Shown here in pieces: positions 10,747 through 27,555 of a stretch of DNA of 64,000 bases. The stretch's first letter is position 1. Each line of letters begins with the position of its first letter. The notes under the pieces were generated by a model, which was not told where the DNA came from, searched no databases, and saw nothing but the letters and a program-made list of their open reading frames with translations. The translations under genes and the position numbers were made by a program. The DNA comes from Cupriavidus necator N-1 (GTDB taxonomy: Bacteria; Pseudomonadota; Gammaproteobacteria; Burkholderiales; Burkholderiaceae): positions 1,178,001 to 1,242,000 of the forward strand of contig NC_015726.1 of assembly GCF_000219215.1 (NCBI RefSeq), written 5' to 3'.

Positions 10747-13499
10747 GCGGCGTCGAGCGCCTCGCCTGCCAGTGCCTTGAGCCGGTACAGCGCCTCCAGC
10801 GCGGCGCGCGGCGTCAGGGTGTCGGGGTCCAGGCCGGCCAGCGCATCGATCAGCGCGGCCTGTTCGGGTGCGAGCGCGGGCGCCAGCGACGCGGACACGG
10901 TCGCCGGGGCGGCGCCGAAGTCGTCCTCGTCGTCCTCTGGCGTTGGCGGCGCCGCGAACAGGTCCAGCTGCGGTGTGGGCGTGGCGTCGGCCGATTGCTG
11001 CTCCAGCCAGGCCAGGTGCTTGCGCGCGGCGCGGATCACCGGCTGCGGCACGCCGGCCAGCTGCGCTACCTGCAGGCCGTAGCTCTGGCTGGCAGGGCCG
11101 TCCTGCACCGCGTGCAGGAAGACAATGCCGTCGCCATGCTCGACTGCCGACAGGTGCACGTTGGCTGCCTGCGGGAACTCTTGCGGCAGCTGTGTCAGCT
11201 CGAAGTAATGCGTGGCGAAGAGGGTATGGCTGCGGTTGTGCGACAGCAGGTGGCGCGCGATGGCCCAGGCCAGCGCCAGCCCGTCGAAGGTCGACGTGCC
11301 GCGTCCGATCTCGTCCATCAGCACCAGCGAAGCCGGGGTCGCGTGGTGCAGGATGCCGGCGGCCTCGGTCATCTCCACCATGAAGGTTGAGCGGCCGCCC
11401 GCGAGGTCATCGGCGGCGCCGATGCGGGTAAAGATGCGGTCGATCGGCCCGATCACGGCGCGCCGCGCCGGCACGTAGGCGCCGACACAGGCCAGCAGCA
11501 CGATCAGTGCGGTCTGGCGCATGAAGGTCGACTTGCCGCCCATGTTCGGGCCGGTGATCAGCAAGAGCTTGCGCGCTTCATTGAGCTGGCAGTCGTTGGC
11601 GATGAACGCCACCGACTCCGCCGCGAGCTGGCCTTCGACCACCGGATGGCGGCCCTGCACGATGTCGACCACGTTCTCGGCGACGCGCTCCGGCGCGGAC
11701 CAGTCCAGCGTCTGCGCGCGCTCGGCCAGTGCCGTCAGCACGTCCAGGCGCGCCAGCGCGCCCGCCACCCGCTGGAGCTCGCCGATATGCGGCAGCAGCG
11801 CCTGCAGCAGGCCGTCGTAGAGCTGCTTCTCGCGCGCGAGCGCGCGGTCCTGCGCCGACAGCGCCTTGTCTTCGAAGGCCTTCAGCTCAGGCGTGATATA
11901 GCGCTCGGCATTCTTCAGCGTCTGGCGGCGGCGGTAGTCGTCGGGCACCTTGTCGGCCTGGCCGTTGGTGACCTCGATATAGAAGCCATGCACGCGGTTG
12001 AACTCGACGCGCAGGTTGGCAATGCCGGTGCGGGCGCGTTCGCGCGTTTCCAGGTCGATCAGGAACTGGCCGCAGTTCTCGGAGATGTCGCGCAGTTCAT
12101 CCAGGCCGGCATCGTAGCCGCGCGCAATCACGCCGCCGTCGCGCACCACCGTGGCCGGCTCTTCGGCCACGGCGCGCACCAGCAGGTCCAGGCAGTCCTG
12201 CGGCACGGCCAGGTCGTGCAGGGTCTGCGCCAGCAGGGTGCTGCCCTGGTCGTCGCGGATGCAGGCCTGCACCTCAGGCAGCGCGCGCAAGGTGTCGCGC
12301 AGCGAGGACAGGTCGCGCGGCCGCGCATTGAGCAGCGCCAGCCGCGAGGTGATGCGCTCGACGTCCGCCAGCCGGCGCAGCGCCGTGCGCAAGGCATCGG
12401 TGCCCTGGTCGATCAGCACGCCGATGGCCTGCTGGCGTGCCTGCGGCAGCGCCGGGTCGCGCAGCGGGTGGTGCAGCCAGTGGCGCAGCGCGCGGCTGCC
12501 CATGGCCGTGCAGCAGGTGTCCAGCAGCGAGAACAGCGTCGGCGACTCGCCGCCGCGCAGGGTCTCGGTCAGTTCCAGGTTGCGCCGCGTGGCGGAATCC
12601 AGGCCGACGTACTCTGATTCGCGCTCCACCTTCACGCCCTGCACATGGCGCAGCGACTGGCCCTGCGTGGTGGCGGCGTAGTTCAGCAGCGCGCCGGCCG
12701 CGCCCAGCGCGGCACCCAGCCCGGCACAGCCGAACGGGTCCAGGCTGGCCACGCCCAGCTGCTCGCGCAGCCGGCGCGTGCCGGCGTCCTGGTCGAAATG
12801 CCATTCGGGCAGGCGGGTACGCGCGCACGCCAGCGCGGGCAGCTCGATGCCGTCGGCATACAGCAGCTCGGCCGGGCGGATGCGCTCCAGTTCGCGGCCC
12901 AGTTGCGCCGCTTCGCATTCCATCAGGCGCAGCTCGCCGCTGGCCAGGTTCAGCCACGCCAGCCCGGTCTTGCTGACGCCGCGGCGCGTGGTCTGCTGGT
13001 GCACTGCCATCAGGAAGGTATCGGCCTTGTCCGGCAGCAGCGCGGCATCGGTCAGCGTGCCGGGGGTGACGATGCGCACCACCTTGCGCTCCACCGGCCC
13101 CTTGCTGGTGGCCGGGTCGCCGATCTGCTCGCAGATGGCCACGGATTCGCCCAGCTTCACCAGGCGCGCCAGGTACTGGTCCGCCGAATGGAAGGGGATG
13201 CCGGCCATGCGGATCGGCACTCCGTTGGATGCGCCGCGCGCGGTCAGCGTGATGTCGAGCAGGCGCGCGGCCTTTTCGGCATCGTCGTGGAAGAGTTCGT
13301 AGAAGTCACCCATGCGGTAGAACAGCAGGGTGTCGGGGTGGTCTGCCTTGATGCGGAGATACTGTTGCATCATGGGGGTGTGACGTTCTGCGGGCGATTC
13401 CGTAGTGGCCTGATCTACCTTGGTTTTTCCGCGCGATCCCTTTGCTGGCGCGGCTTCCACGCCAATCTGGGGGCTTTCGTTCATCTCGTCAACACTCAT
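10743..13499 (-). CDS. mutS: DNA mismatch repair protein MutS
   Basis: Recognises base mismatches and small loops and recruits MutL. The 918-aa protein is complete: the FxE mismatch-binding motif in RMGDFYELF near the N-terminus, connector, lever/clamp domains, and the ABC-type ATPase with Walker [12 protein letters not shown] and Walker [17 protein letters not shown]. The ATG at 13499 is assigned; a GTG at 13505 is in frame. The first about 45 residues are a variable extension before [14 protein letters not shown]. The phage attachment repeat begins 28 bp upstream of the ATG, so the native upstream region now lies 40 kb away, beyond attR. Confidence 0.95.
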
Positions 13500-13526
13500 C
13501 GTCACTCGCCTACACTCCTGTCGTCA

Positions 13527-13537
13527 GCGTAGGTTTC
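13527..13537. other. attL (11-bp prophage direct repeat)
   Basis: GCGTAGGTTTC occurs here and again at 53534-53544 in the same orientation, exactly bracketing the integrase-to-membrane-protein phage block. It lies between mutS and the integrase. The match is short, so the crossover core could be part of this repeat. Confidence 0.65.
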
Positions 13538-13586
13538 TAGCGTATCATCCCGAAAAAACCACGCCGGGGTGCGCCGATGCCATTCC

Positions 13587-13600
13587 GGCAAAACCTACGC
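13587..13600. repeat. 14-bp inverted copy of the sequence at the right junction
   Basis: GGCAAAACCTACGC here is the exact reverse complement of GCGTAGGTTTTGCC at 53546-53559, beside attR. A shorter related string, cctacgcc, occurs just before the integrase start. These could be integrase arm or core-type binding sites. Confidence 0.6.
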
Positions 13601-13617
13601 TACTGAAATCCTACGCC

Positions 13618-14898
13618 ATGCAATTCGACGCGCGCGCTGCCAAGCTGCTTAAACCGGGCGAGCACATGACGATCACAGATCATCCGGGCCTGCGCCTTGA
13701 ATGCGCCGCCAGCCGGCGCACGTGGATCTACCGCTACAAGTCGCCGGTCGACGGCCGCATGAAGCAGACGAAGATCGGGGCCTGGCCAGCGATGTCGCCG
13801 GCGGCTGCCATTGTCGAATGGGAGAAGCTCAGGGCTGCCCGGGACAGTGGCCGCGATGTTGCAGCGGAGAAGCGTGCAGCGAGAGCCAGCGCACGGTCGG
13901 TATCGGATGGGAGTTTACCGCAGGAGGGGCCGTACGATGTCCGTCGGCTCTGCCGGAACTATCTGGAAGGGCACGTTGAGCGCAATCGAGCACTGAAAGG
14001 GGCGAAAGAGATCCGCAGGATGTTTGACACCATGCTCGACCCAATTGCCGACATGCTTCCTCAGCAGGTTACCCGGTCGGTTGCGTTTGAGCTGCTCAAC
14101 TCTTACATGCACATTCCTGTCCAGGCTGGGAGGCTGCGTTCCGAGCTCGGGGCGGCGTGGGACTATGGTCTGGACGCCGGAAAGCTCCCGGATGACACGC
14201 CGAACTGGTGGCGCCAGATTATGCGCGGCAGATTCCAGAGTCGGGGGAAAAAGATCGAAGGAAAGTCGGTTGGGGAGGTGAAGCGCGTGCTGACGGAGAG
14301 CGAGGTCGGCGAGCTGATCCGCTGGCTGCCGAATTTCAGCCGTATCGTGGCAGACGCGCTGGCGCTGTATCTGTGGACCGGCACGCGCGGGTCGGAGATT
14401 GTCTCGATGGAGGCGGCCGAGATCAGCGAGGAGGAGGACGGCCTCTGGTGGACTATTCCCAAGGCGAAAACCAAGAATGCCAAGCGGCAGGGGGCTACGG
14501 ACCTGCGCGTGCCGCTGTTCGGCCAGGCCGAGCAGATCGTGCGCCGGCGCCTGGCCATTGCTGGCAAGGGGTATCTGTTCCCGTCCAGGGTCGGCGGCCC
14601 GACCGAGCAGAAGACGATCCAGACGGCAGTCTTCTATCACCAGCCGTACTCGAAGACCCGGCCGGAGGATCAGCGGCCCCGTCTCACGGTCGCCCGGTGG
14701 GCGCCGCATGACCTTCGCCGCACGGTTCGCACGCTGCTCGCGTCAATGGGCTGCCCGACCGAGGTTGCGGAGTCCGTTCTCGGTCACATGTTGCCTGGCG
14801 TGCAGGGTGTCTACAACCGGCACACGTATGACCGCGAGCGGCATGAGTGGCTGGGGAAACTGTCGGAGAAGCTGGAGAGCCTCGCGGCCCTCCGGTAG
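13618..14898 (+). CDS. int: phage tyrosine integrase (P4-type, DUF4102 N-terminus)
   Basis: Site-specific recombinase of 426 aa that would integrate and excise the prophage. The N-terminal DUF4102 arm-binding domain (FDARAAKLLKPGEH to about residue 85) is followed by a core-binding domain and the catalytic domain with Arg257 (TGTRGSE), Lys around 284, HDLR (His364, Arg367), His390 (LGH) and nucleophile Tyr399 (GVYNRH). The start is ATG 13618, directly after the att region. It is transcribed away from attL and converges with the leftward early operon, whose last stop is only 7 bp downstream of the int stop. Confidence 0.93.
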   Translation: MQFDARAAKLLKPGEHMTITDHPGLRLECAASRRTWIYRYKSPVDGRMKQTKIGAWPAMSPAAAIVEWEKLRAARDSGRDVAAEKRAARASARSVSDGSLPQEGPYDVRRLCRNYLEGHVERNRALKGAKEIRRMFDTMLDPIADMLPQQVTRSVAFELLNSYMHIPVQAGRLRSELGAAWDYGLDAGKLPDDTPNWWRQIMRGRFQSRGKKIEGKSVGEVKRVLTESEVGELIRWLPNFSRIVADALALYLWTGTRGSEIVSMEAAEISEEEDGLWWTIPKAKTKNAKRQGATDLRVPLFGQAEQIVRRRLAIAGKGYLFPSRVGGPTEQKTIQTAVFYHQPYSKTRPEDQRPRLTVARWAPHDLRRTVRTLLASMGCPTEVAESVLGHMLPGVQGVYNRHTYDRERHEWLGKLSEKLESLAALR

Positions 14899-14905
14899 GG
14901 GGGGC

Positions 14906-15160
14906 TTATTTGGAGCGACGCCAGGCGTTGAAGGGAAACCCAAGCTCGGCGTGGAAGCGCTGGGCAGCCGTGGGATCGCTGTCAAGCTCGCTGCGCGATT
15001 TGATGCCGCAGGCGTGGCGAAGCACTGCGGCGGCGCGGTCGGTATCCTCCAGGTCGGAGAAGTCTCGCCAATCCACCGGGAAGCGCTCGGCGAGGAAGCG
15101 GCGGAATTCCGGGTTGCCGCAAAGGATGCCCGCAGTGCGGGCGAGGGCAGGGCGGGTCAT
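14906..15160 (-). CDS. phage hypothetical protein
   Basis: An 84-aa protein, last gene of the leftward early operon. It contains NPEFRRFLAERFPVDWRDFSD and RHACGIKSRSELD. Its form is reminiscent of small DNA-replication- or recombination-linked phage proteins, but I cannot assign a function. It starts 2 bp after the stop of the preceding gene and ends 7 bp from the int stop, with no hairpin between. Confidence 0.75.
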   Translation of the reverse strand: MTRPALARTAGILCGNPEFRRFLAERFPVDWRDFSDLEDTDRAAAVLRHACGIKSRSELDSDPTAAQRFHAELGFPFNAWRRSK

Positions 15161-15162
15161 GG

Positions 15163-16017
15163 TCAGGCGGCCTCCTGCGAGGAATGGATGGGGGCTCCGA
15201 GCGACAGCACGATCGTGTCGGTGGGCAAGTCGTAATCCCGCTGGATATGCGTCACGCGCTTGATTACCTCGCGGCCCGTGTACTTCAGCGGCATGCCCTT
15301 CGACATAGCCTTTGCGCTGTACAGCGTCTCGCGCAGGCGCAGTAGGTCGCCCACTTCGTAGCCTCGGTCATCGCGGCGGACCTCGCATGCTTTGCGGCCA
15401 GAGAGTAGGTCTGCGAACGGCTCCTCATCGCATTTCAATTCGTGTATCACGGGCTCCGAGCAGTCACTACATATGTCGCTGTGGCATTCCGCCTTGGCTT
15501 CCTGCTGGGCCTCTAGCTCTGCGATGCGGTCCAGTAGGCGAATAACAGTGCGAGGATGGACGGCCGCCACGTACTCAGCGAGTCCATTGAAATAACCCTT
15601 TTCGCTTGCGAAATGGCACACCCACTGTCTTCCCATTCCGCGGAAGTTGTCCGCATACAAGTAGCGATGCCCGAAAGCGGGTTTCCCGATGTACCAGCCA
15701 GAGAGCTGCAGATGTTCCGGCACAGCGGACGCCAGCGCTCGCAGCTCTTCATTGGTCGGCATGGGGCATGCTAGCGGAGTACTATCCGCGCCCTTCTTCC
15801 ATTTCTCCACCGGGAAGAGGCCGGTTTGCTTCCAGCGTGTCCTTTGCTCATCGGTCATCGGTGCCCATTGCTCTTCGGGGGCGGCGGCTTGCAGTCTGGC
15901 GACCTGATAGGCCAGGGTGCGGGCGTACGATACGAGCGCGTGTGCGTCCTTCCAGGTCAGCTTTCCGTGAGTTATCGCGTTGCGCTCGAGGGCGTCGAGG
16001 TTCAAAGGTTGTGACAT
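15163..16017 (-). CDS. phage protein with C-terminal DUF3850 (ASCH/PUA-like) domain
   Basis: A 284-aa protein in two parts. The N-terminal half is a phage-type module beginning LNLDALERNAITHGKLTWKD, with a glutamine/alanine segment. The C-terminal about 95 residues (IHELKCDEEPFADLLSGRK, CEVRRDDRGYEVGDLLRLRE, then VTHIQRDY) match the DUF3850 pattern, an ASCH-like small domain thought to bind RNA or modified nucleotides. Fusion of this domain to longer phage early proteins is known. It lies in the early leftward operon, so it is probably expressed soon after derepression; its exact target is unknown. Confidence 0.7.
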   Translation of the reverse strand: MSQPLNLDALERNAITHGKLTWKDAHALVSYARTLAYQVARLQAAAPEEQWAPMTDEQRTRWKQTGLFPVEKWKKGADSTPLACPMPTNEELRALASAVPEHLQLSGWYIGKPAFGHRYLYADNFRGMGRQWVCHFASEKGYFNGLAEYVAAVHPRTVIRLLDRIAELEAQQEAKAECHSDICSDCSEPVIHELKCDEEPFADLLSGRKACEVRRDDRGYEVGDLLRLRETLYSAKAMSKGMPLKYTGREVIKRVTHIQRDYDLPTDTIVLSLGAPIHSSQEAA

Positions 16018-16021
16018 GGTG

Positions 16022-16300
16022 CTAGCCCTCCTTGCTGGCGCTCATGGCGGCGCGACGATTTCGCAGGATCTCGACCAGGCCGGCCCGGTCGATTTCGACG
16101 GCGCCATGCGCGATTGCTAGCGCGCGCTTGCTATTGGCGATGTCGAAGTGTTCATGGTGTGTGCCGGCCTTCTGCATCCACTTCCGCTGCACGCCGATCT
16201 TGTCGGCCATGGCCAGCAGTTCCTCAGTCGTATCGGCCAGCATGTGGCACATCACCATGCGGCCATAGCTGGCTTCCATGTCGTCAACGTAGACCGTCAT
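16022..16300 (-). CDS. DUF4031 domain protein
   Basis: A 92-aa protein with the full DUF4031 signature: start MTVYVDDMEASYGRMVMCHM, then LADTTEELLAMADKIGV, an HHEHFDIANSKRALAIAHG segment and a C-terminal helix. The family is common in phages and actinobacteria, and its function is unestablished. It overlaps the upstream gene by 4 bp and so is likely translationally coupled. Confidence 0.8.
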   Translation of the reverse strand: MTVYVDDMEASYGRMVMCHMLADTTEELLAMADKIGVQRKWMQKAGTHHEHFDIANSKRALAIAHGAVEIDRAGLVEILRNRRAAMSASKEG

Positions 16301-16578
16301 GGGTGACCCTCCGGAACTCCACCACCCACACCCATGGATTGCGCGGCGGGATCACGGTCCAGGTAGTGGCGATACGCGCCCTCGATAAAAGCCTGCTCGA
16401 TGAACGCGGCAATGGCCTTTGCTCGTTCTGCTTCGGGCTGGTAATTGGCCAGGCGCTGCGCGACCTCGCTGAGGCGGATTTCGGCACCCCACATGGCTGC
16501 CATCGTCTGCAGCGCGGACAGGGCTTTGCCGAGTGCGCGGCGCTGGTTCGGAGTCAGGTTCTCAAGCTCTTCAGCCAT
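16297..16578 (-). CDS. phage hypothetical protein
   Basis: A 93-aa, mainly helical protein starting MAEELENLTPNQRRALGKAL, with a Gly/Pro-rich end. No recognised domain. It overlaps both neighbours by 4-8 bp in the early leftward operon, which supports it as a real gene. Confidence 0.65.
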   Translation of the reverse strand: MAEELENLTPNQRRALGKALSALQTMAAMWGAEIRLSEVAQRLANYQPEAERAKAIAAFIEQAFIEGAYRHYLDRDPAAQSMGVGGGVPEGHP

Positions 16579-16819
16579 TGCCGTGCTCCACGTTGGTGGT
16601 GATCGCCTTGATTCCCTCCACGGAAATCACGCGCATCCGGTGCTGCTGGTCGGCCTTGTGGACGATGTTGCGAACAGAGTTGATCGCTTCTTCTGCCGCC
16701 TGCCCGTAGACCTGTGAGAGGGCGCATTCAGGGCCCCAGCTGCCGACGTGGACCTCGACAGTCAGTGAAACAGTGGCTACTGTGGTGGTGCGGATGCGTT
16801 GCTTGTGTCGTTCAGCCAT
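16571..16819 (-). CDS. phage hypothetical protein
   Basis: An 82-aa protein beginning MAERHKQRIRTTTVATVSLT. It has alternating basic and hydrophobic residues in a possible beta-sheet N-terminus and a helical middle (AAEEAINSVRNIVHKA). ATG at 16819 was chosen because it overlaps the upstream gene by 8 bp; the longer in-frame extension to 17044 runs across another gene. Function unknown. Confidence 0.65.
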   Translation of the reverse strand: MAERHKQRIRTTTVATVSLTVEVHVGSWGPECALSQVYGQAAEEAINSVRNIVHKADQQHRMRVISVEGIKAITTNVEHGNG

Positions 16820-17447
16820 TGTTCGTCTCCGCCTTGATGGCACGCTGCGCGGCGTCCAGCAGTCGCTCGCGCAGCGTCTGGTGCGGTTCGTAGGACACGC
16901 CCAACGCTTGGCGAAGCATCTCCAGCTCAGTGCGCGCGTCGTCCAGCATGTCGCGGTTGGCGGAGGCCTCGTTGTGCAGATCGGTGATGGCGTCTTCGAG
17001 GCGCTGCGCGAGTGCGTTCCCGCGGCCCGTAATGGCGGCGGCATACTCTGCCCACTCCCCGCTGTCGAGCATGGTCAGCATTGCTCTGACGGCTGCCACC
17101 AGGTCGCCTTGGCCGACTGCCGTGGAGGTGGCCAGTAGCTCGTCAATCGCGGCGAGAATCGGCTCGGCGCCACCGTCATTGGGATCAAGGCCCAGCTTCT
17201 CGTTAATGAGCCCGAGGTCAGAGCAGGCGGCCTGGAACATGCGTCGATACTGCGCCTTCGAGGTGTGGTCGTCGTCGGCATCGTTATGCTTCACGCCATG
17301 GGCGGCACGCACAGCGTCAGCAAAGCGCCCGAGCGCGGCATCCCATGCGTTTGTGCCAGGCCCGGCCATCATCAGTCCGCTCTCGCGCGCCAGCTTCCAG
17401 TCTTCGTCCCGGCAATGTGCCGGTGTAGTTGATTCGGTCATTGTCAT
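16812..17447 (-). CDS. phage hypothetical protein
   Basis: A 211-aa mostly helical acidic protein, MTMTESTTPAHCRDEDWKLARES at the N-terminus and a long predicted coiled region (DAITDLHNEASANRDMLDD) in the C-terminal half. The ATG at 17447 overlaps the TGA of the upstream gene (ATGA). No family recognised. Confidence 0.65.
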   Translation of the reverse strand: MTMTESTTPAHCRDEDWKLARESGLMMAGPGTNAWDAALGRFADAVRAAHGVKHNDADDDHTSKAQYRRMFQAACSDLGLINEKLGLDPNDGGAEPILAAIDELLATSTAVGQGDLVAAVRAMLTMLDSGEWAEYAAAITGRGNALAQRLEDAITDLHNEASANRDMLDDARTELEMLRQALGVSYEPHQTLRERLLDAAQRAIKAETNNG

Positions 17448-17914
17448 TCCTCGAAAAGCGCCACTTGGCGCGGGTCGGATTCGGTAGGGGAGGGCTCGGC
17501 CTTGCTTGTGCGTTGCGATGGGGTGTCCGGCATCAGCTGCGGTGCGCGCAGGACGTGGCCGCCGGCGTAGACGTGCGCAAACAGCCGGCGGATCGCGTCG
17601 ACGGGGTGGGCGCACGCGCGTGCTTCGCCTGGGATGAAGAGACCGGCGTTGTGCGGAATCAAATCGCTGTAGGCGCAGCCCAGCTCGCGCGCGAGATCCG
17701 TCATGGCGGCCTCGATGGCGCTGGCCACGTCAGCGTTGCCGCATGCTGCGGCGGCGATCGCAGTCGGCTGCTCGCCTGGCAGGACCTCGCGCACCAGCAC
17801 ACGCTCGATCTCGGCCGGACTGCGGTTCCAGGCGCTGCGGTCCATGCACATCACGCCGCGGATCGGGCTGGTGATCGCGGCATACCATTCGCGCGGTTGT
17901 GCTTGGGCGCTCAT
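17444..17914 (-). CDS. phage hypothetical protein
   Basis: A 156-aa protein starting MSAQAQPREWYAAITSPIRG, with HNAGLFIPGEARACAHPVDA in the middle and a low-complexity tail ending DPRQVALFEE. The last residues resemble a short clamp-binding-like peptide (QxxLF), which is speculative. It overlaps neighbours by 4 bp on both sides. Confidence 0.6.
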   Translation of the reverse strand: MSAQAQPREWYAAITSPIRGVMCMDRSAWNRSPAEIERVLVREVLPGEQPTAIAAAACGNADVASAIEAAMTDLARELGCAYSDLIPHNAGLFIPGEARACAHPVDAIRRLFAHVYAGGHVLRAPQLMPDTPSQRTSKAEPSPTESDPRQVALFEE

Positions 17915-18666
17915 GCTGGGGCCTCGCTATTCGTCGTGGCCCGGACTTTGGCCTCGGCGTAGTGCGCCTCACTGCAGAACCCTTGCTTCATCCAGCCGAT
18001 ATGCGAGGGTCGGCCGCAGAAGCATTGCGGCATGGGATTAGACTGGTTGGCATCGAACCAGGCCTGTGCTTCCATCCCGTACGGCGCGTCTTCGTCCGGG
18101 ATGTGGCCCGGTCCACATAGGGTGTTGTGGATCCAGCCCATGGCATCGTCGGCGCCGCGCCCGTGTTCCCACTCGATCCAGGCGGCCTGCATCACCACGA
18201 CCTGGTCATGCACGATGTTCGAGAGCGACGCGGTGAGCCTTTCGAGCTGCTCAGCCTTGGCTGCCATGGTTTCGCGGCTGCCCTGCAGGAACGCGCGCAT
18301 CGCGTGCTCGGCGACGACTTGCTCGCTGGCGCCGCGGGCGCGCAGCATGGCGGCGTAGTTGGCCACATTGACCAGCTTGCCCTTGCACAAGGCTTCGGCC
18401 ATCAGCTGTGCCAGGCGTTCGATCGAGCATTCCAGCGGGTTGTCCCAGCCGCCGGCGCCTTCCTTGCGTTTTTCGGCCAGCTTGGCCTTCATCGCGCTGG
18501 CCAGCTGATCCACGGCGATGTCGTCGACGTGGGTGCGGGGTGATTTGCGGAAGGTCTTGGCATCATCACGCGACGTGGCGGCGAGTCGCAGGCCTTGCTC
18601 TTCGGGGATGCGTGCGCCGATGCTGTTGATCGATGGCGCACGGTTAGTGCGGCGATGCTTTGCCAT
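17911..18666 (-). CDS. phage hypothetical protein with C-terminal Cys motif
   Basis: A 251-aa protein: basic N-terminus (MAKHRRTNRAPSINS), helical middle, and a C-terminal segment PQCFCGRPSHIGWMKQGFCSEAHY whose Cys/His spacing could bind one zinc ion. Function unknown. It sits between the ParB-type gene and the rest of the early operon, overlapping its downstream neighbour by 4 bp. Confidence 0.65.
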   Translation of the reverse strand: MAKHRRTNRAPSINSIGARIPEEQGLRLAATSRDDAKTFRKSPRTHVDDIAVDQLASAMKAKLAEKRKEGAGGWDNPLECSIERLAQLMAEALCKGKLVNVANYAAMLRARGASEQVVAEHAMRAFLQGSRETMAAKAEQLERLTASLSNIVHDQVVVMQAAWIEWEHGRGADDAMGWIHNTLCGPGHIPDEDAPYGMEAQAWFDANQSNPMPQCFCGRPSHIGWMKQGFCSEAHYAEAKVRATTNSEAPA

Positions 18667-18687
18667 GGGGATCTCCGGTGTGATGGT

Positions 18688-20715
18688 TCAGCTGGCCAGC
18701 AGGTCGTCCAGGGTCTTGCCGCTGGCGAGGGCTGCTTCGACCCAGCCTGGGCGCTTGCCGCGGCCGGTCCAGGTGTTGCCGAGCTCGTCGCGATAGCGGA
18801 CAGCGGGCTTTCGGCTGGTGGGCTTCGCTGCTGCCTTGGGCGGGATGGGGCGGCGCAGCAGGGCGGGGAGCCAGCGTCGGCCGTCCAGGTGTCCCTCGGC
18901 CGCGGCTATCATGTCGCCCTTCTTCATACCGGCCAGGCCTGCGGCGGCTTCTTCACCGGCAGCTTCGCGCACGGCTTCGATGCGGCGGGCTGCCGGCACG
19001 CTAGCCAAGTAGGAGCCGGCGGTGGGCTGCCACCAGTCGGCCATGTCGAGATCCAGCGCCTCGGCGAGTTGGTTGGCGCGCGCGTGGCCGGCGGCGTCCT
19101 CCCGTTGCTCGAAGGTGTTGATGCTGTGCGCCACGCAGACCGCCAGCAGATCAAGCTGGTCGGCCTGGCTAAGTTCCTGGAGCCAGGTGAACAGATCGTC
19201 GGCCTCACCGGGCAGGCGGTCTTCCCAGCGTGCAACGCTGGCTTCCATGCGCTGCCAGGCGGGCGAGGCCTCGATGTCGGACGTGGCAGATGACGCGGAG
19301 CCGCGCTGGTCAGTGATCGAGACCTTGGCCACGGCGTCATATCGATGGCGATAGTTCAGCGACGAATGGAAGACGTCCGGTACCAGTGCATACAGCAACG
19401 CCGTGAGTGCTACCGTTGGCGACTCAGCCACCAGCGCCTGCAGCGCGACGGTGCGGTGTGCGGTGAGCTTGTGTATCAGGGTTGCCGGCAGCGACTTCTC
19501 CTGCGGCGCCTGCGTTGGAGTCTCGCCGCCTTCGCTTTCGGCATGCAGATCCTGCGGCTTCTTGCCGTCCTTGGTCGGTTTGATTAGCCCGCGGTGGATC
19601 TCGACAGCGCCTGCGTGGTCGATGGTGACGATTGCGCCGGCGCGGGACTTCTGACGTTCGGTGTAGTCTTCCAGGCCTGTCTTGAGGTTAGCGATTTCGG
19701 CCTCGACCTGGTCGAATTCTGCTTGCTGCTCGTCGGTGGAATCCTCGTCCTGGAGTAGGTCGTCGAGCTGGCGTGCACGCATCTCCAACTGCTCGAGCTG
19801 AGCGGCCTCCTCGGCGGTGGTGTCGCGTTTCTTCGCTTGGCTGCGGCCGAAGCTGTGCTGTTCGCTGTAGTCGAGCTTCTCCCGGGCTTCAACCCAACTC
19901 CAGCCTTCCGCGCGCACTTGGTCGGCGATCCCTTCGAGCTTTTCCATGGCCATGCGCTGGAGCAGCTTGGCGTCGCCGATGTAGCCGCCGCCGTTGCTGA
20001 AGAGATCGCGCGTGACCGGGCCACCCGCGGCCTCGTAGGCGTCCAGGCCGACGAAGCGCGCCAAGCGATCGCGCGAGGCGTCGATGGCCTTGTCAACCAG
20101 AGCTTCACGCAGATAGGTCGGATTGCGTTGCCACGGAGTGGCGGTGTCCCACACGCGTTCCTGGTCAGCGTGGTTGTCGGAGATGGCCAGGGCCGTGAGC
20201 TGGTCCAGCTTGATGTTGCCCGCGCGGTATTCGGTAATGAGTCGTGGCGAGACGTTTGCCAGCTTGAGGCGGCGGCGCACAACCAGCGGCGTGACGCCAA
20301 AGCGCGCGGCGACATCGTCGACGGAGCTGCCGGCATCGATCAGCACCTTGAAGGCCTCGAACTCGTCGGCGGGGTGCATGGCTTCGTGCATGTTCTCGGC
20401 GATGCTGGCCTCCTCGGCGTCGCCGGCCTCACGCAAGATGCAGAGGACTTCGTGATCCTTGGGCAGCTTGCGCTCGGCCATGAGCTGCTGGAGCGCCTGC
20501 AGGCGCCGGCCGCCGGCGATGACCTCGTAGGGTGCGGCGTTCTTCTTACGGTTGGTGGTGGCCGTGATGGTGAGGTTCTGCATCAGTCCATGAGACAGGA
20601 TCGATGCGGCCAGTTCGTTGATGGTGGAGGAGGGGGTCTTGCGGACGTTTCGCGGCGAGATGGCCAGCTGGTCGATGCGCACGTGCAAAAGATCGCCTGC
20701 TTGGGGGGTGCTCAT
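18688..20715 (-). CDS. ParB-type protein with a C-terminal H-NS-like DNA-binding domain
   Basis: A 675-aa phage protein. The N-terminal about 250 residues follow the ParB/RepB/Spo0J pattern: LAISPRNVRKTPSS, the CTPase box EVIAGGRRLQALQ, ENMHEAMHPADEFEAF, and the helix-turn-helix VDDVAARFGVTPLVVRRRL. A charged coiled-coil-like section follows (about 290-370), then a variable part with many Ala. The last about 35 residues (VRYRDELGNTWTGRGKRPGW, then LASGKTLDDLLAS) match the H-NS C-terminal motif, YRDxxTGxxWxGRGRxPxWL in betaproteobacteria. The combination suggests a DNA-condensing or silencing protein. It is the largest gene of the early operon. Confidence 0.85.
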   Translation of the reverse strand: MSTPQAGDLLHVRIDQLAISPRNVRKTPSSTINELAASILSHGLMQNLTITATTNRKKNAAPYEVIAGGRRLQALQQLMAERKLPKDHEVLCILREAGDAEEASIAENMHEAMHPADEFEAFKVLIDAGSSVDDVAARFGVTPLVVRRRLKLANVSPRLITEYRAGNIKLDQLTALAISDNHADQERVWDTATPWQRNPTYLREALVDKAIDASRDRLARFVGLDAYEAAGGPVTRDLFSNGGGYIGDAKLLQRMAMEKLEGIADQVRAEGWSWVEAREKLDYSEQHSFGRSQAKKRDTTAEEAAQLEQLEMRARQLDDLLQDEDSTDEQQAEFDQVEAEIANLKTGLEDYTERQKSRAGAIVTIDHAGAVEIHRGLIKPTKDGKKPQDLHAESEGGETPTQAPQEKSLPATLIHKLTAHRTVALQALVAESPTVALTALLYALVPDVFHSSLNYRHRYDAVAKVSITDQRGSASSATSDIEASPAWQRMEASVARWEDRLPGEADDLFTWLQELSQADQLDLLAVCVAHSINTFEQREDAAGHARANQLAEALDLDMADWWQPTAGSYLASVPAARRIEAVREAAGEEAAAGLAGMKKGDMIAAAEGHLDGRRWLPALLRRPIPPKAAAKPTSRKPAVRYRDELGNTWTGRGKRPGWVEAALASGKTLDDLLAS

Positions 20716-20737
20716 GTGGTGCTCCGGATGGTTGGGG

Positions 20738-21157
20738 TCAGGCTTCGACGGGCGCGCCTTGCGCTTGCATGGTGGCCTTGGTGATGGCGTGGGCGGCGGT
20801 GAATGTGTCGAGGCGCGTACGGCCGATGGCCTCCTCGATGGAGGGTGCGGCTGCGCGCAGCGTCAGCGCTTCAAGGTCCAGCACCGTGACTTTGGCGGAG
20901 CGCTGCCAGCGCCCGAAAACGCCAGCCATGGCGCGCCGGGCGGATCCCAGCTGCACGTCATAGTCCTGGATGCCCTGTGCCTTCATGGCGAGGGTGATCA
21001 GCTCCAACGTGCGCATCAGCCGGTTGTAGCCGGTATCGCTGGGCGCGCTGATGAAGCCGGCCAGGTCCGCGTAAAACGTGAGGTCGACGTGCCGCGTGTT
21101 CTGGGCCGTCATGGGGATGGCGACCGGCCGTGGCTGGTAGTTGCTGCGCTTTTTCAT
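20738..21157 (-). CDS. phage hypothetical protein
   Basis: A 139-aa protein beginning MKKRSNYQPRPVAIPMTAQN, with a helical segment (GYNRLMRTLELITLAMKAQG) and a C-terminal region containing SIEEAIGRTRLDTFTAAHAI. It overlaps the kinase-like gene by 4 bp. No family recognised. Confidence 0.65.
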   Translation of the reverse strand: MKKRSNYQPRPVAIPMTAQNTRHVDLTFYADLAGFISAPSDTGYNRLMRTLELITLAMKAQGIQDYDVQLGSARRAMAGVFGRWQRSAKVTVLDLEALTLRAAAPSIEEAIGRTRLDTFTAAHAITKATMQAQGAPVEA

Positions 21158-21513
21158 GTCGCGGCCCCCAGGAACTCGGCGTCGCCAATCACGCGGTCGA
21201 GCAGGTCGAAGGCGCGGAAGAAATCGCGCGACACGGTGACCTGGTGGTCGATGTCACGCAGCGCAATGTCATTCTCGGGCCCGAAGTCGGGCAGATGGGG
21301 GTCGCGCAGGTGCACGACGATGCCGCCACGCTCAGCCAGGATCTCGGCGTCGACTCGATCGCGGATATGCATCACCACGATGTGGTGGCCTGCCAGTTCG
21401 TCGACGAGCGGGTCGGTGATGAGCTTCGTAGGGGTGAAAGCGTGGGTGCGCGCGAGATAGTCGGCGACAGCATCCTGGCCGACACCAGGGCGGCCGGTAA
21501 GTCCGATCAGCAT
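21154..21513 (-). CDS. deoxynucleoside-monophosphate-kinase-like protein
   Basis: A 119-aa protein resembling the N-terminal half of phage dNMP kinases (T4 gp1-type): MLIGLTGRPGVGQDAVADYL has the P-loop outline, followed by FTPTKLITDPLVDEL and the pattern VVMHIRDRVDAEIL. The P-loop lysine expected in GxxGxGK is replaced by Gln (GVGQD), so classical ATP hydrolysis would be impaired. ATG at 21513 is preceded by GGAGAGACCC. The protein is also shorter than most family members. Confidence 0.55.
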   Translation of the reverse strand: MLIGLTGRPGVGQDAVADYLARTHAFTPTKLITDPLVDELAGHHIVVMHIRDRVDAEILAERGGIVVHLRDPHLPDFGPENDIALRDIDHQVTVSRDFFRAFDLLDRVIGDAEFLGAAT

Positions 21514-21523
21514 GGGTCTCTCC

Positions 21524-21754
21524 TCAGTCGAGGTCGTTTGCCTGGCGGCGTTTGTGATCTGGGATGGATGGATCGAAGCGGAGGCGGGGAGGGTGGCGGC
21601 GCGCCTGAGTCTTGCGCTGGGCATCGAGAAACGCGCGCACCTGCATGGCCACGCGCCATTCGCGGACGCGCAGCTCAGCGTTGCCCGACCCGTTCATCAG
21701 GCGGAAGCCTTCGACCAGGTCGGCAAACGTGTAGCGGGCGCGGCGCCGGCTCAT
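21524..21754 (-). CDS. phage hypothetical protein
   Basis: A 76-aa basic protein, MSRRRARYTFADLVEGFRLM, with an arginine-rich C-terminal half. Unknown function. It lies between the 45-residue protein gene and the kinase-like gene, 10 bp from the latter. Confidence 0.55.
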   Translation of the reverse strand: MSRRRARYTFADLVEGFRLMNGSGNAELRVREWRVAMQVRAFLDAQRKTQARRHPPRLRFDPSIPDHKRRQANDLD

Positions 21755-21755
21755 T

Positions 21756-21893
21756 TCAGCCCTGTGACGTGATGCGCTTGGCAGCTACCGTGCGCGCGCC
21801 GCGGTTGAATCCGTCTTCGATCGCATCGAAGGTGCAGCGAAACAGGCCGACATAGGCGCGACGGCCGTCGAGGACGATGCGGAACGCGATCAT
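21756..21893 (-). CDS. small phage protein, 45 aa
   Basis: A 45-aa reading frame starting MIAFRIVLDGRRAYVGLFRC and ending AKRITSQG. The AGGAGG ribosome site 8 bp upstream and the 4-bp overlap with the AlpA-type gene support expression. No function known. Confidence 0.6.
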   Translation of the reverse strand: MIAFRIVLDGRRAYVGLFRCTFDAIEDGFNRGARTVAAKRITSQG

Positions 21894-22114
21894 TGCGGCT
21901 TCCTCCTGGATGTGTTCGGCGGCGGCGGGAGGTCGGATACCGGGCGGGCTTCGGCCCACTCTTCAACCTCGCGTACAAGCCAGGCAACCCGACGGCTCGA
22001 AACGGTGCGCGGTTTCGGGAACTGCTCTTCGCGCACGAGCTTTTGCACGCTGGTTTCCGAGAGCGCCACGATGGACGCTACCGTAGGTAGGTCGACGTAG
22101 AAGGGGCGGATCAT
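21890..22114 (-). CDS. AlpA-type helix-turn-helix regulator
   Basis: A 74-aa protein. It contains the MerR/AlpA-like winged helix: MIRPFYVDLPTVASIVALS, then ETSVQKLVREEQFPKPRT and SRRVAWLVREVEEWAEAR. AlpA-like proteins act as excisionase or integrase activators. Being early and opposite int, a role in excision is likely but inferred. It overlaps genes on both sides by 4 bp. Confidence 0.8.
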   Translation of the reverse strand: MIRPFYVDLPTVASIVALSETSVQKLVREEQFPKPRTVSSRRVAWLVREVEEWAEARPVSDLPPPPNTSRRKPQ

Positions 22115-22623
22115 TGCGCAGCCCCCATAGCGCGAGCTGTCGCCCTGGCGGCTGCTTCTGCGAGATCTCGGGCTCGCTCTAGCTCGAGGTATTGCCAGCA
22201 GAGTTCGAGCAGTTCAGGCATGGAGGTCACGCAAGACTCGAGCCGCTCGCCGTAGTGGCCGCCCACAGTGATGCATTCGATCTTTATCTGTGCGCCATGC
22301 TCTCGCGACGTTAGGGGTTCGCCTCGTACGTCGTCCCATGCCGGGCAATGCCAGAAGTCGATGCAAAGATCGAGTTCGACGCTGAGGCCAAATGTCGTAC
22401 TGAAGGACATCGCCTCCCGCATGTAGTGGCGGGTGGGGGTGGTCTCCTCCAAGCGGAGGAAGTCCGGATCCTGATTGGCGCTGTCTAGGAAAATAGATCT
22501 GCCACGATCGCCTTCGGTGTACCCGGACCGGTAGATCCAGTTGTGCTCGGAGCCGAAGTCATCGATGACCAGCCAGCGGTTAGGGCGCGGACGTACTGCG
22601 TAGTCGGGATATTCGAGATGCAT
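22111..22623 (-). CDS. phage hypothetical protein
   Basis: A 170-aa protein starting MHLEYPDYAVRPRPNRWLVI, with many acidic and aromatic residues (FWHCPAWDDVRGEPLTS) and an Ala-rich C-terminus. No recognised domain. It is the second gene after PL. Confidence 0.6.
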   Translation of the reverse strand: MHLEYPDYAVRPRPNRWLVIDDFGSEHNWIYRSGYTEGDRGRSIFLDSANQDPDFLRLEETTPTRHYMREAMSFSTTFGLSVELDLCIDFWHCPAWDDVRGEPLTSREHGAQIKIECITVGGHYGERLESCVTSMPELLELCWQYLELERARDLAEAAARATARAMGAAQ

Positions 22624-22632
22624 GGCCGCCCC

Positions 22633-22767
22633 TCACACTTGGCGCGCCGTAGCGGTCGTGGGGTCGGCCCGTAGGTCAGACTCAACGGCGCAGGCGTGGA
22701 CGGCGAAGGCGGCGGCTACCAGGGTCAGGTAGAAGATCCAGCCTTTGATCTGTTTGGGCTTGTTCAC
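22633..22767 (-). CDS. small membrane protein, first gene after PL
   Basis: A 44-aa protein with a GTG start at 22767 and a GGAGG ribosome site 4 bp upstream. VNKPKQIKGWIFYLTLVAAA is followed by FAVHACAVESDL: one predicted transmembrane helix with a cytoplasmic basic start. Being first under the early promoter, it may act at the membrane soon after derepression. Function unknown. Confidence 0.55.
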   Translation of the reverse strand: MNKPKQIKGWIFYLTLVAAAFAVHACAVESDLRADPTTATARQV

Positions 22768-22807
22768 GGTGCCTCCATCGTTGACGCGGATTGCGTCGAT
22801 GGGGGCA

Positions 22808-22836
22808 ATTAAACACCACGTTTATTTTTGCGTCAA
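22808..22836 (-). promoter_or_regulatory. PL, leftward early promoter
   Basis: Read leftward: TTGACG (complement of 22831-22836), 17-bp spacer, TTTAAT (complement of 22808-22813). It would start transcription near 22801 with about a 34-nt leader to the GTG at 22767. Confidence 0.8.
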
Positions 22837-22849
22837 CACGGTGTTTAAT
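22808..22849. promoter_or_regulatory. OL operators (two repressor sites)
   Basis: Two 19-bp palindrome-like sites, ATTAAAC-ACCAC-GTTTATT (22808-22826) and CGTCAAC-ACGGT-GTTTAAT (22831-22849). They share the layout of the two sites near PR and overlap the PL -10 and -35 elements, so repressor binding would block PL. Confidence 0.75.
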
Positions 22850-22856
22850 CTGGTGT

Positions 22857-22885
22857 GAAAAAAAACCCACCAGGGCGGTGGGCTT
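22857..22885 (-). terminator. terminator of the repressor gene
   Basis: Read leftward: CCCACC...GGTGGG stem (22866-22871 with 22877-22882) followed by a T-tract. It lies 25 bp after the repressor stop and keeps repressor transcription out of PL. Confidence 0.8.
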
Positions 22886-22909
22886 TCACTGTGTGTAAGG
22901 TCGACCTGC

Positions 22910-23674
22910 CTACAGGTCAAATCCAGCGTGGCGGACAACGCCACAGAATTGGTCCCCTTCTTTGAGCCTTTGGTATCGCTCCGGCCAGTCCGGGTTGAGC
23001 GCCTCAAGGTACATTTCACCCTCAACCAGCGTCAGCTTTTTGAAAGTTGCCTTTCCTTCGCGACGGACGATCACATATTTGCCGGGAAGGGCTTCGGCGT
23101 CGGGACTCACAAATAGTTTGATCCCATCAGGGAATGACGGGTAGACCCCTGCAGGCGCAGTCATCGATGGGCCCCGTACCGTCACCACAAAGCCGCATGG
23201 TCCGAGATCGATATGGCACTGATGCCAGATCGTATGCTCGTCCGGCTCGAAATTCTCACAAAGCTCTGCCCACATCCCCGCTTGCACCCAAGAAATCTCG
23301 GGGTATCGCCTTGGTCTGAGATCCGGACCTGGTTCGAAGTTATCCCCCGCCATCGAAAGGGGATTGTAAGCGGGTGCTGAGGTTATCTCGTTAAGTTTTG
23401 CTTCTACCTGACCTGCACCAGATTTGGGCTTGACAGCCTCCATCGGTGGAACTCCAGTCAGCAACCAGGTGGCACTGCAGCCAATCGCCGCCTGCGCCTT
23501 CAGCATCCCACCCTGGGAAATACCCCTCCGCTCCCAGTTATTGATGGTTTGCTGTGACTGATTAAGCGCCCGAGCGACTTCGGTTGGCGTGCTCAGTCCC
23601 CTGAGTGTCTTCGCGGCCTCGTAGAGGCGAACCATGGATTCGTGCATGCCGCGGATGTTCTCACGAGTAAACAT
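22910..23674 (-). CDS. cI: LexA/CI-like phage repressor
   Basis: A 254-aa lysogeny repressor. The N-terminal helix-turn-helix is around residues 28-55 (TEVARALNQSQQTINNWERR). The C-terminal S24 peptidase domain has the cleavable Ala-Gly (132-133, WVQAGMW), Ser170 (VRGPSM) and Lys212 (FKKL), so RecA-stimulated self-cleavage and SOS induction are expected. ATG 23674 is the best start and lacks a Shine-Dalgarno; a later ATG at 23647 is possible. A weak leftward promoter with -10 TTTATC at 23681-23686 would give a leaderless message like lambda PRM. Confidence 0.9.
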   Translation of the reverse strand: MFTRENIRGMHESMVRLYEAAKTLRGLSTPTEVARALNQSQQTINNWERRGISQGGMLKAQAAIGCSATWLLTGVPPMEAVKPKSGAGQVEAKLNEITSAPAYNPLSMAGDNFEPGPDLRPRRYPEISWVQAGMWAELCENFEPDEHTIWHQCHIDLGPCGFVVTVRGPSMTAPAGVYPSFPDGIKLFVSPDAEALPGKYVIVRREGKATFKKLTLVEGEMYLEALNPDWPERYQRLKEGDQFCGVVRHAGFDL

Positions 23675-23680
23675 TCTGTT

Positions 23681-23723
23681 GATAAACGCCGTGTTTGACT
23701 TGTGATTAAACGTCGTGTTTAAT
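23681..23723. promoter_or_regulatory. OR operators and PR
   Basis: Two 19-bp palindrome-like sites, GATAAAC-GCCGT-GTTTGAC (23681-23699) and ATTAAAC-GTCGT-GTTTAAT (23705-23723). PR on the plus strand is TTGACT (23695-23700), 17-bp spacer, TTTAAT (23718-23723); its start point would be near 23730, the ATG of cro. The same sites would control repressor transcription leftward. Confidence 0.8.
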
Positions 23724-23729
23724 TGCGCC

Positions 23730-23987
23730 ATGAGCTCGAACCAGACCACCGTCCATTGCGACTGGCAAATCATCGAGGACCTTGGTGGCGCAACCGAGGT
23801 CGCCAAGCTCCTTGGCTATGACAAAAAGCGCGGCGGTATTCAGCGAATTCACAACTGGAGGGTAAGAGGCATCCCATCGGCAGTAAAGGTTGCCCACCCG
23901 GGATTGTTCATGAAGGAGGTAGTCAGCAGTTTGGACGCCTCTGACGACGCCCAGCCTCCAGTGGGGCGCATCGAGGTGGATTCTTGA
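23730..23987 (+). CDS. cro: Cro-like repressor
   Basis: An 85-aa protein starting MSSNQTTVHCDWQIIEDLGG; its helix-turn-helix (GGATEVAKLLGYDKKRGGI, QRIHNWRVRGIP) fits Cro-type proteins. The start lies 6 bp after the PR -10 element with no ribosome site, so the message is predicted to be leaderless. It would oppose the CI-like repressor at the shared operators. A longer reading starting at 23715 would use a GTG inside the operator and is less likely. Confidence 0.8.
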   Translation: MSSNQTTVHCDWQIIEDLGGATEVAKLLGYDKKRGGIQRIHNWRVRGIPSAVKVAHPGLFMKEVVSSLDASDDAQPPVGRIEVDS

Positions 23988-24203
23988 GATCGGCGTCGGG
24001 CACGGTTGCCTCATGTTGAGGTGCGTGCCAATTCTTCCGACGAGGGGTACTTTGCCGCCTCTCAATCGGAGTCAAACGACGAAGAAATTTCGGCTTGGGC
24101 TGGAACACAGATTTCTCCCTGAGCTCGCGGTCAAGTGCCGCGTTGAGACAAAGATTAGCAGGCCGTGCTTGCAGAAAGAACGGCTGTTTTCCGGGGGTTT
24201 ACC

Positions 24204-24503
24204 GTGGTCTCTGTGAAGATCGGCAACGACATCAACCAGCACGAGGCGCTCTACAGCCTCGCGAGCCGGTATCCGGGTTCGATTGAGGGCCTCGCGCAGG
24301 CAATGGGCCGTCGCCTTGGGCGACAGATGTACCCCAATGTATTGCGCAACAAGCTGCGGCCAGGGATTGATACGCACCATCTCAACTTCGAGGAGTACTC
24401 CCTCATCCTGGAACTGTGTGAGGAGGCCAAACTTGATGGCTGGCAGATCCCAATGCGCGCGCTCTGCTGGCGTCATGGCATGGTCGCGATCCCCTTACCG
24501 TAA
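24204..24503 (+). CDS. CII-like phage regulatory protein
   Basis: A 99-aa protein of the phage CII/CP76 type: IGNDINQHEALYSLASRYPG, then EGLAQAMGRRLGRQMYPNVL with a helix-turn-helix, and ALCWRHGMVAIPLP at the end. The assigned GTG start at 24204 has GGGGG 6 bp upstream; another GTG at 24165 is possible. Between cro and this gene are about 216 bp with no convincing frame. It probably helps to set up lysogeny. Confidence 0.75.
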   Translation: MVSVKIGNDINQHEALYSLASRYPGSIEGLAQAMGRRLGRQMYPNVLRNKLRPGIDTHHLNFEEYSLILELCEEAKLDGWQIPMRALCWRHGMVAIPLP

Positions 24504-24524
24504 GTCGAAGGCGCGCCCGCCAGT

Positions 24525-24749
24525 GTGGCGACCGCAATGCGTCAGGCCGGCGAGGCAGCGCGTGAGTTCGGCGAGATGATGGCGGAGTTTGCGCAGGCGG
24601 CTTCGGACGGAAAGATCACGCGCAGCGAGGCTGAACGTGTGCTACCCGAGGTCCAGCACGTGCTGACCATGGTGACGATGCTTCGGGACTCCATCGAGGC
24701 CGTCACGGTTCCTGACGATACCGCCTTCGGAATTCCGCGTCTCGTATGA
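24525..24749 (+). CDS. phage hypothetical protein
   Basis: A 74-aa helical protein with GTG start. Its middle is EMMAEFAQAASDGKITRSEA, followed by an LTMVTMLRDSIEAV helix. Small proteins with a DGKIT-like turn often accompany CII-type regulators; no function is established. It overlaps the next gene by 4 bp. Confidence 0.6.
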   Translation: MATAMRQAGEAAREFGEMMAEFAQAASDGKITRSEAERVLPEVQHVLTMVTMLRDSIEAVTVPDDTAFGIPRLV

Positions 24750-25096
24750 TCCGATCCGATCTGTTGCCCGGCACACGAAGCGTGGCGCCTGTGGGCCGCG
24801 TGCGTCCAAAACTCATCCTTCGGCGGCGCAAGCCACTGACGGCGCGCGAGCTGAAATCGGTGTTTGACCGAGTCAAGAAGCGTGTGCTGAAGGGTGGTGA
24901 GCCCTTCGGGTTGTTCGCGATCAAGCATGGCCAGGGCCGCGTCTTTCGCCTGATCAGCGTGAAGGACGCGAACTACACGGCGCAGCTGCGCGTCGACAAG
25001 GCTCTGCAGCACATGGTCGGGACCTACGACGGCAGCGCCAATTTAGGCCACGTCTGGGATGACCTGTGCGCGTTTGACCGGACGCCACCCGCGTGA
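24746..25096 (+). CDS. phage hypothetical protein
   Basis: A 116-aa basic protein with MIRSDLLPGTRSVAPVGRVR and a domain containing EPFGLFAIKHGQGRVFRLIS. ATG overlaps the previous TGA (ATGA). No domain recognised. Confidence 0.65.
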   Translation: MIRSDLLPGTRSVAPVGRVRPKLILRRRKPLTARELKSVFDRVKKRVLKGGEPFGLFAIKHGQGRVFRLISVKDANYTAQLRVDKALQHMVGTYDGSANLGHVWDDLCAFDRTPPA

Positions 25097-25506: not shown

Positions 25507-25514
25507 GGACTTCC

Positions 25515-25688
25515 ATGGATCTTCCAGTCCAATCTATCGAATCGCTGCGTGAAGCAGGGCAGAAGGCCGCCGTGAAGGGAGCGCGGGCCGATGCCAATCC
25601 GTTCCCCCCGTATAGCGGCCACTATCGCCAGTGGGAGCATGGCCACGTCTGGCAGCTCCTGGATCCTCGCAGCGAGGAGGGTGTCTGA
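25515..25688 (+). CDS. Rmf/CrpP-like small protein
   Basis: A 57-aa protein, MDLPVQSIESLREAGQKAAV then KGARADANPFPPYSGHYRQW and EHGHVWQLLD. The layout (short helix, G-x3-A-A-x-G-x6-NP[FY], then a W-containing helix) fits the ribosome-modulation-factor-like fold that includes the plasmid/phage protein CrpP. It starts at ATG 25515 and shares one base with the next ATG (TGATG). Ribosome binding or small-molecule modification is possible; neither can be told from sequence. Confidence 0.6.
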   Translation: MDLPVQSIESLREAGQKAAVKGARADANPFPPYSGHYRQWEHGHVWQLLDPRSEEGV

Positions 25689-27066: not shown

Positions 27067-27068
27067 GC

Positions 27069-27466: not shown

Positions 27467-27508
27467 TCCGCTACGCTGTGCGCTCGGTGCGTGCAGTGAA
27501 GATGAAAG

Positions 27509-27538: not shown

Positions 27539-27555
27539 CATTTCTGGAGCGCGTC

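Follow-up and report, generated by a model that had tools for sequence, protein, structure and literature searches.

Does a prophage lying directly against mutS disable mismatch repair in its host? This question is raised by a 64,000-nucleotide stretch of the 8.48 Mb genome of Cupriavidus necator N-1 (contig NC_015726.1, positions 1,178,001 to 1,242,000; hereafter the window, to which coordinates refer unless another locus is named), in which a prophage adjoins the start of mutS. A prediction made from the sequence alone (hereafter the original prediction) had placed the phage attachment site in the untranslated 5′ leader of mutS and proposed that integration severs the gene from its promoter, making the host a conditional mutator while lysogenic. 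The computational analysis described here points to a different arrangement: the prophage very probably occupies the HTPMMQQ codons of mutS itself, supplies a phage-borne start in frame and leaves the native start as an orphan at its far end, so that mutS is rebuilt rather than switched off.

Junction Between the Prophage and mutS

The product of the interrupted gene scores 1077.9 bits against the NCBIfam model TIGR01070 (mutS1), which is above the equivalog cut-off of 641.7, and is 97% identical to that of the nearest vacant relative, genome G037, over query positions 156–641. A search of 60 congeneric genomes, the window's own included, matched the start of mutS in 59. In 56 of these, the match to the window ends between approximately 13370 and 13400, and only genomes G023 and G046 match further, to 13540 and 13538, respectively. 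The left (attL) and right (attR) prophage ends of the window, G023 and G046 were then compared. The sequence ATGATGC is common to all three attL/attR pairs and is followed by A in the window and G023 and by T in G046; the exact crossover point probably falls somewhere in or near the core ATGATGCA, approximately 150 bp from the repeated words described below. When the host flanks are joined at ATGATGCA, they form one open reading frame (ORF), in which 167 of 173 bases are identical to G037. The phage does target the 5′ end of mutS, as originally predicted, but the host–phage boundary is located inside the coding sequence, in the HTPMMQQ codons, and not in untranslated DNA before the gene.

The native start of the gene is found at the opposite end of the prophage. 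The mutS N-terminus of close vacant relatives (MAMGLQKKTDPEQ / MAMGLQKKTDPEQAQAD ...) is encoded in the window at 53675–53593, where it passes into the phage end after HTPMMQQ and has the universal stress protein gene usp behind it; L002/L037 and L003 are among the vacant relatives with an N-terminus of the same kind. By tblastn, usp precedes mutS in 26 of the 56 vacant loci, and it also adjoins the orphan start of G023. The orphan start and the usp synteny bear out the proposal that the ancestral upstream DNA is now behind the far end, 40 kb away. The predicted loss of the native promoter holds in so far as the native upstream DNA has been separated from mutS, but the phage brings an in-frame start and N-terminus with which the gene is rebuilt.

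This arrangement recurs within the genus. Three of the 59 genomes are occupied (the window, G023 and G046), each with an orphaned start: that of G023 (MPDKGMQEKIELNQEVAKPLAEKHTPMMQQ) lies approximately 44.7 kb from the phage-led mutS, and in G046, where the host motif reads HTPMMLQ, a third, different native start is orphaned 55.3 kb away. The 44-residue leader of the window mutS has homologues only in G023 and G046, and a profile of the integrase family finds a member beside mutS only in the three occupied genomes (the other loci reach approximately 1.4 to 2.5 kb upstream). The alternative that mutS always has this 5′ region without a phage, raised in the original prediction, does not hold in these 59 genomes. 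Among 399 sampled genomes of the order, seven contain the integrase at 1e-60 or better, in nine copies, four of which are beside mutS (the window included). One genome, G133, has two copies of a related integrase (L132 and L135), neither beside mutS. The features of the window are collected in Table 1.

Table 1. Coordinates of mutS, the prophage and associated elements in the window.
Feature	Position	Strand	Remarks
Host part of mutS, crossover core to stop codon	10743..13373	-	NCBIfam TIGR01070; Pfam MutS domains I–V
attL core ATGATGCA, in the HTPMMQQ codons of mutS	13366..13373	-	Comparison of attL/attR pairs
Replacement start of mutS	13374..13505	-	Probable start GTG 13505 (alternative ATG 13499); 44 codons in frame
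Prophage body	13374..53592		Core to core 53600 minus 13373 = 40,227 bp (~40.2 kb)
Divergent control region between mutS leader and int	13506..13617		112 bp; sequence and alignment of 7 relatives
Promoter-like site TCGTCA-16-TATCAT	13521..13548	+	Towards int; consensus match only; arm word in spacer
Putative integrase arm-type word AGCGTAGGTTT	13526..13536	+	attL repeat of the original prediction
Inverted copy of arm word	13591..13601	-	11/11 complementary
Third arm-like word	13607..13616	-	One mismatch; repeat scan
Tyrosine integrase (int)	13618..14898	+	426 aa; Pfam Arm-DNA-bind_3 and Phage_integrase domains
S24-peptidase-type protein	22910..23806	-	Pfam PF00717, 2.8e-17
Terminase large subunit	29599..31647	+	PHROG 15, 7.2e-248
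Portal protein	31883..33334	+	PHROG 21, 2.6e-95
Major head and protease protein	33387..35453	+	PHROG 4523, 2e-224
Tail sheath (contractile tail)	36952..38433	+	PHROG 165, 3e-185
Two tandem arm words, far end	53534..53555	+	Second is the attR repeat of the original prediction; repeat scan
Orphaned native mutS start	53559..53675	-	29 residues, then 9 codons and stop (38-aa ORF)
attR core ATGATGCA	53593..53600	-	Comparison of attL/attR pairs
Native upstream region of mutS, presumed to hold its promoter	53676..53903	-	Synteny with vacant relatives; now reads into phage end
usp, native upstream neighbor of mutS	53904..54773	-	Pfam PF00582

The Phage-Borne Start of mutS

The segment 13374–13505 is phage DNA, and the start codon that it supplies to mutS is probably GTG 13505. 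In an alignment of seven close leaders, a GTG equivalent to 13505 is in frame in six and is preceded by GGAG in three, and ATG 13499 is lost in G046, L083, L085 and L087. The attL repeat of the original prediction does begin 28 bp before this ATG, but the ATG belongs to the phage, and the GTG is the start kept in frame in six of the seven leaders.

A wider set of 26 upstream regions, chosen for the presence of HTPMM or a near form of it (the window included, L125 excluded), was also analyzed. In all 26 regions, an open frame of 20 to 73 codons precedes the motif and contains an ATG, GTG or TTG (ATG in 20); because the motif picked the frame, this is a sign of consistency and not proof. In codon comparisons of the leader, the nonsynonymous (dN) and synonymous (dS) divergences are 0.19 and 0.84 between the window and G023, and 0.36 and 1.15 between the window and G046, which weakly suggests mild purifying selection. 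In five of the 26 regions (L086, L098, L104, L116 and phage Aval, L127), mutS does not follow the motif; it is followed instead by a few codons and a stop, or by unrelated sequence, as expected of a free phage attachment site (attP). Such attP-like leaders lend indirect support to excision as a circle. In the record of the Acidovorax phage Aval (OP131589), the annotated int, from position 82, overlaps an unannotated mutS-like leader that runs in the opposite direction.

These data suggest the following course of events. A temperate, contractile-tailed Cupriavidus phage with its own tyrosine integrase would integrate into the HTPMMQQ codons near the start of mutS, using an attachment site that resembles these codons and is preceded by the phage's own start codon and approximately 44 codons. 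On integration, MutS would exchange its variable N-terminal tail, and the gene its upstream region, with domains I to V kept in frame. In the lysogen, mutS would be read from the phage-borne leader beside the divergent int, presumably from a phage promoter, and the native start would be left as a short orphan ORF. Because the phage contributes an in-frame segment with a start codon, a functional hybrid MutS would be the simplest expectation. Excision at the core would bring the native start back to mutS and leave the gene intact; the scarless type is predicted because the reading frame is the same on either side of the core. A conserved coding motif may thereby serve as a phage site at little cost to the host.

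Repeated Words and the Shared Control Region

Exact copies of the word GCGTAGGTTT are located at 13527 (+), 13591 (−), 53534 (+) and 53546 (+), where approximately 0.07 would be expected by composition; six copies with at most one mismatch were found against 1.52 expected, a number reached in 2 of 100 shuffles. Because the exact copies occur two per end, and on both strands at the left end, against an expectation of 0.07, they are most likely arm sites of the integrase. The repeated word reported in the original prediction is real, but its identification as attL and attR was not confirmed: copies occur in both orientations, the far end has two of them, and host sequence does not start at these words. 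A hairpin at the far end (CCUUUGCG/CGCAAAGG) was considered as a terminator after the orphan ORF and did not stand out in folding energy (z of −1.26; 23 of 200 shuffles were as good).

The start codons of int and mutS, which diverge, flank a control region of 112 bp. The site TCGTCA-16-TATCAT is the only consensus-like promoter in 13340–15600, where shuffled sequences gave means of 0.1 and 0.4. Because this sole site faces int and holds an arm word in its spacer, there are hints at a possible regulation of int, and conceivably also of mutS, by the integrase itself. A strong promoter toward mutS within 13527–13618, which the original prediction had named as an observation that would speak against it, was not recognized by the consensus scan. 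Nor was there a CTGT-N8-ACAG match indicative of SOS control in the leader; the scan as a whole gave 13 matches against 17.7 expected.

Alternative Explanations

Several observations weigh against the view that mutS is rebuilt from a phage-borne start. In six of the 26 leaders no ATG is in frame, and translation would have to begin at GTG or TTG; the dN/dS ratio of the leader is approximately 0.8 for G046–L085 and approximately 0.9 for L083–L085 (the latter pair with only four differences), and dS is near saturation in most pairs. In addition, no sigma-70-like promoter directed toward mutS was found by the consensus scan in 13380–13700 or 13340–15600. The same scan recognized no promoter in the native upstream stretch 53500–53950 either, and it is therefore not sensitive for this genome. 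A separate possibility concerns regulation: MutS may work in both states, with different promoters in phage and native configurations, and the integrase, acting on the arm words in the shared 112 bp, may couple the level of MutS to int expression or induction. The only promoter-like site has arm words next to it and inside it, the divergent int and mutS share the region, and a switch of control has been proposed in general terms (Chu et al., 2017, PMC5296598). The promoter-like site comes from a consensus scan, and no LexA-type box is present in the 112 bp; we consider such a switch possible but unlikely.

The model in which the phage sits in the untranslated leader, severs mutS from its promoter and turns the lysogen into a conditional mutator correctly places the native upstream DNA 40 kb away, and it agrees with the lack of a recognized mutS-directed promoter in the phage leader. 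It is contradicted by the position of the junction inside mutS, where the phage gives a start codon and an N-terminus in frame; an in-frame start is likewise offered by related leaders (all 26 regions, which were chosen for the motif). In a relative-rate test, the window was compared with G037 at 12,894 aligned sites, all of them on the mutS side of the junction and downstream of it. With G032 as the outgroup, 135 lineage-specific changes were counted in the window and 155 in G037 (χ² of 1.38), including 84 and 115 transitions, respectively. With G014 as the outgroup, the counts were 127 and 168 (χ² of 5.7, the only comparison above 3.84), and the excess was on the vacant relative. A mutator imprint on the window lineage found no support, in that these counts show no acceleration and no excess of substitutions or transitions, although the test is weak and would be blind to a phage that arrived recently. 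Conditional mutation while lysogenic thus finds no support in the 135 versus 155 unique changes (a weak test if the prophage is young), and the model as a whole appears highly improbable. Finally, the N-terminal difference might be ordinary species variation of the MutS tail, with the phage merely adjacent, and the 59 genomes do differ widely in their native tails. This reading is refuted, with virtually no room left for it, by the finding that each of the three occupied genomes has the host's own tail at the other prophage end, in frame as far as these very codons.

Gene Content of the Prophage

The presence of a prophage adjoining mutS, as originally predicted, was confirmed: its genes for the head and tail form a complete set, with terminase, portal, head and contractile-tail proteins, and a holin and the S24-type protein are encoded as well. 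The int gene, with its ATG at 13618, is transcribed away from mutS, and genes for a ParB-like protein, tape measure, baseplate, tail fiber and holin are found downstream of it. In the comparison with PHROGs, 16 of the 20 proteins given were matched at 1e-5 or better, some of them only to families of unknown function. The S24-type protein is likely to be the phage repressor. A ParB-like N-terminal region is present in the ORF at 18688–20715 (PHROG 7783/6218), and an exact LexA-type box, CTGTACAAATATACAG, is located at 51750–51765, just 5′ of a possible minus-strand ORF (start near 51725). On the other side of mutS, the gene at 9697–10746 overlaps the mutS stop by 4 bp; its description as a coupled phosphoesterase gene was unconfirmed, since neither Pfam (at 1e-3) nor NCBIfam (at 1e-5) gave a match.

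Relatives of the Integrase and Their Targets

The targets of related integrases were surveyed in 11 genome loci, 49 viral loci, nine loci of the order sample (one of which is the window) and two of 118 phage records. After setting aside 27 of the 49 viral loci, which have too little sequence upstream of int for classification, 43 loci outside the window were sorted by hand (22 viral, 11 genome, eight order-sample and two phage loci). Among these, 26 represent mutS or a mutS-type attP, four a 2-hydroxyacid dehydrogenase gene, two ribA (one by kinship only) and 11 other or unknown targets. The 26 mutS-type loci, which differ from the 26 upstream regions of the leader analysis, include L110, which ends right after HTPMMQQY, L125, a near-repeat of L104, and L068, which is the G023 genome.

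On a quick integrase tree of 69 rows, from which L076, L120, L123, L125 and L138 were dropped, and in which several branches are long and two joins were flagged as possibly false, the mutS label is clustered: it requires 9 changes against a shuffled mean of 14.9, a value as low being reached in 1 of 500 shuffles. Use of mutS as a single clade was rejected, since the starred branches force at least three changes. One branch (four labeled rows, support 100) is associated with the start of the 2-hydroxyacid dehydrogenase gene: the integrated copies in L074 (1793–2998) and L136 (2865–3965) run on into this gene, and upstream of int in L122 and L124 are apparent free forms with MNIVILD, a few codons and a stop. 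A literature search on this gene as a target returned no mention of it among the matches listed. The related integrase of L130 lies behind the 3′ end of ribA (2979–3704), and that of Burkholderia phage KS9 (L126) is its sister in the tree. KS9 was considered as a mutS phage and is unsupported as such, with no HTPMM in the 240 bp before int and an integrase that groups with L130.

Among the described mutS elements, the comparison covered that of Escherichia coli 536, whose mutS has a short integrase of 249 aa next to it; the window integrase shows 29% identity to this protein over query residues 35–185 (2e-11 within the searched set). This distant match supports homology to the integrases of described mutS elements. 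The targets on the tree, which is a quick one with long branches, suggest that this integrase family repeatedly uses the ends of coding genes. More speculatively, the family might be specialized in capturing the 5′ ends of conserved genes by means of a phage-carried substitute start and might have moved between targets (mutS and 2-hydroxyacid dehydrogenase), with the start expressed from an integrase-bound region shared with int and the state of the phage setting MutS dosage; we regard this extension as doubtful.

Relation to Known Systems

The element SXT supplies prfC with a new start. Like the prophage in the window, SXT/R391 integrative and conjugative elements (ICEs) use a tyrosine recombinase to enter a conserved coding gene at its 5′ end, but they are conjugative elements at prfC, whereas the window has a phage at mutS (PMC2791158). 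The prophages and islands described with dusA-associated integrases similarly replace the 5′ end of a coding gene with element sequence and may restore its function; their target is dusA and not mutS (PMC4482086). The SpyCI islands of Streptococcus pyogenes share with the window a phage-like element that affects mismatch repair by integration (PMC3430984, PMC4689407). The original prediction had cited them as islands at mutS that switch repair off and on, but these islands integrate at mutL, between mutS and mutL, silence the downstream genes and leave mutS transcribed (PMC3430984). The prophage in the window targets mutS and restores its reading frame, which is not a switch of the SpyCI type.

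The true parallel is a published class of mobile elements inserted in the HTPMMQQ motif of mutS. These range from 4 to more than 150 kb, include some prophages and occur in hundreds of beta- and gammaproteobacteria, and they supply a start to mutS and orphan the native one (Chu et al., 2017, mBio, PMC5296598). The window has the same features: the junction falls in the HTPMMQQ codons, int is within 300 bp of mutS (112 bp separate the int ATG at 13618 from the mutS GTG at 13505), the element supplies an in-frame translation start, and a host-derived mutS start is orphaned at the far end, as it also is in G023 and G046. The convergent use of mutS by an unrelated betaproteobacterial phage, as originally proposed, is not upheld, in that this class already includes betaproteobacterial prophages such as that of Burkholderia multivorans CF2 (PMC5296598). 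Scarless excision was seen by PCR in E. coli 536, Pseudomonas putida F1 and B. multivorans CF2, and in Vibrio splendidus 12B01 mutS is broken on excision by a deletion of 2 bp (PMC5296598). The window differs in phage and host, and a scar of the 12B01 type is not predicted for it. In a literature search for HTPMMQQ with mutS insertion, the motif appeared only in PMC5296598 among the matches listed; a search for Cupriavidus with mutS islands gave no mutS insertion among the matches listed, the matched passages of PMC2864759 included.

Conclusion

The prophage of C. necator N-1 is a real, well resolved further case of the published mutS insertion class. It adds to that class a fully resolved Cupriavidus example, replicated in two congeneric genomes and accompanied by apparent attP forms of free phages, and it shows how an attachment site can be misplaced when repeats are the only guide. 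It also frames a testable question, namely whether the phage-borne start alters the level of MutS when the phage is resident or induced, and it corrects a plausible but wrong reading in which the phage switches mismatch repair off.

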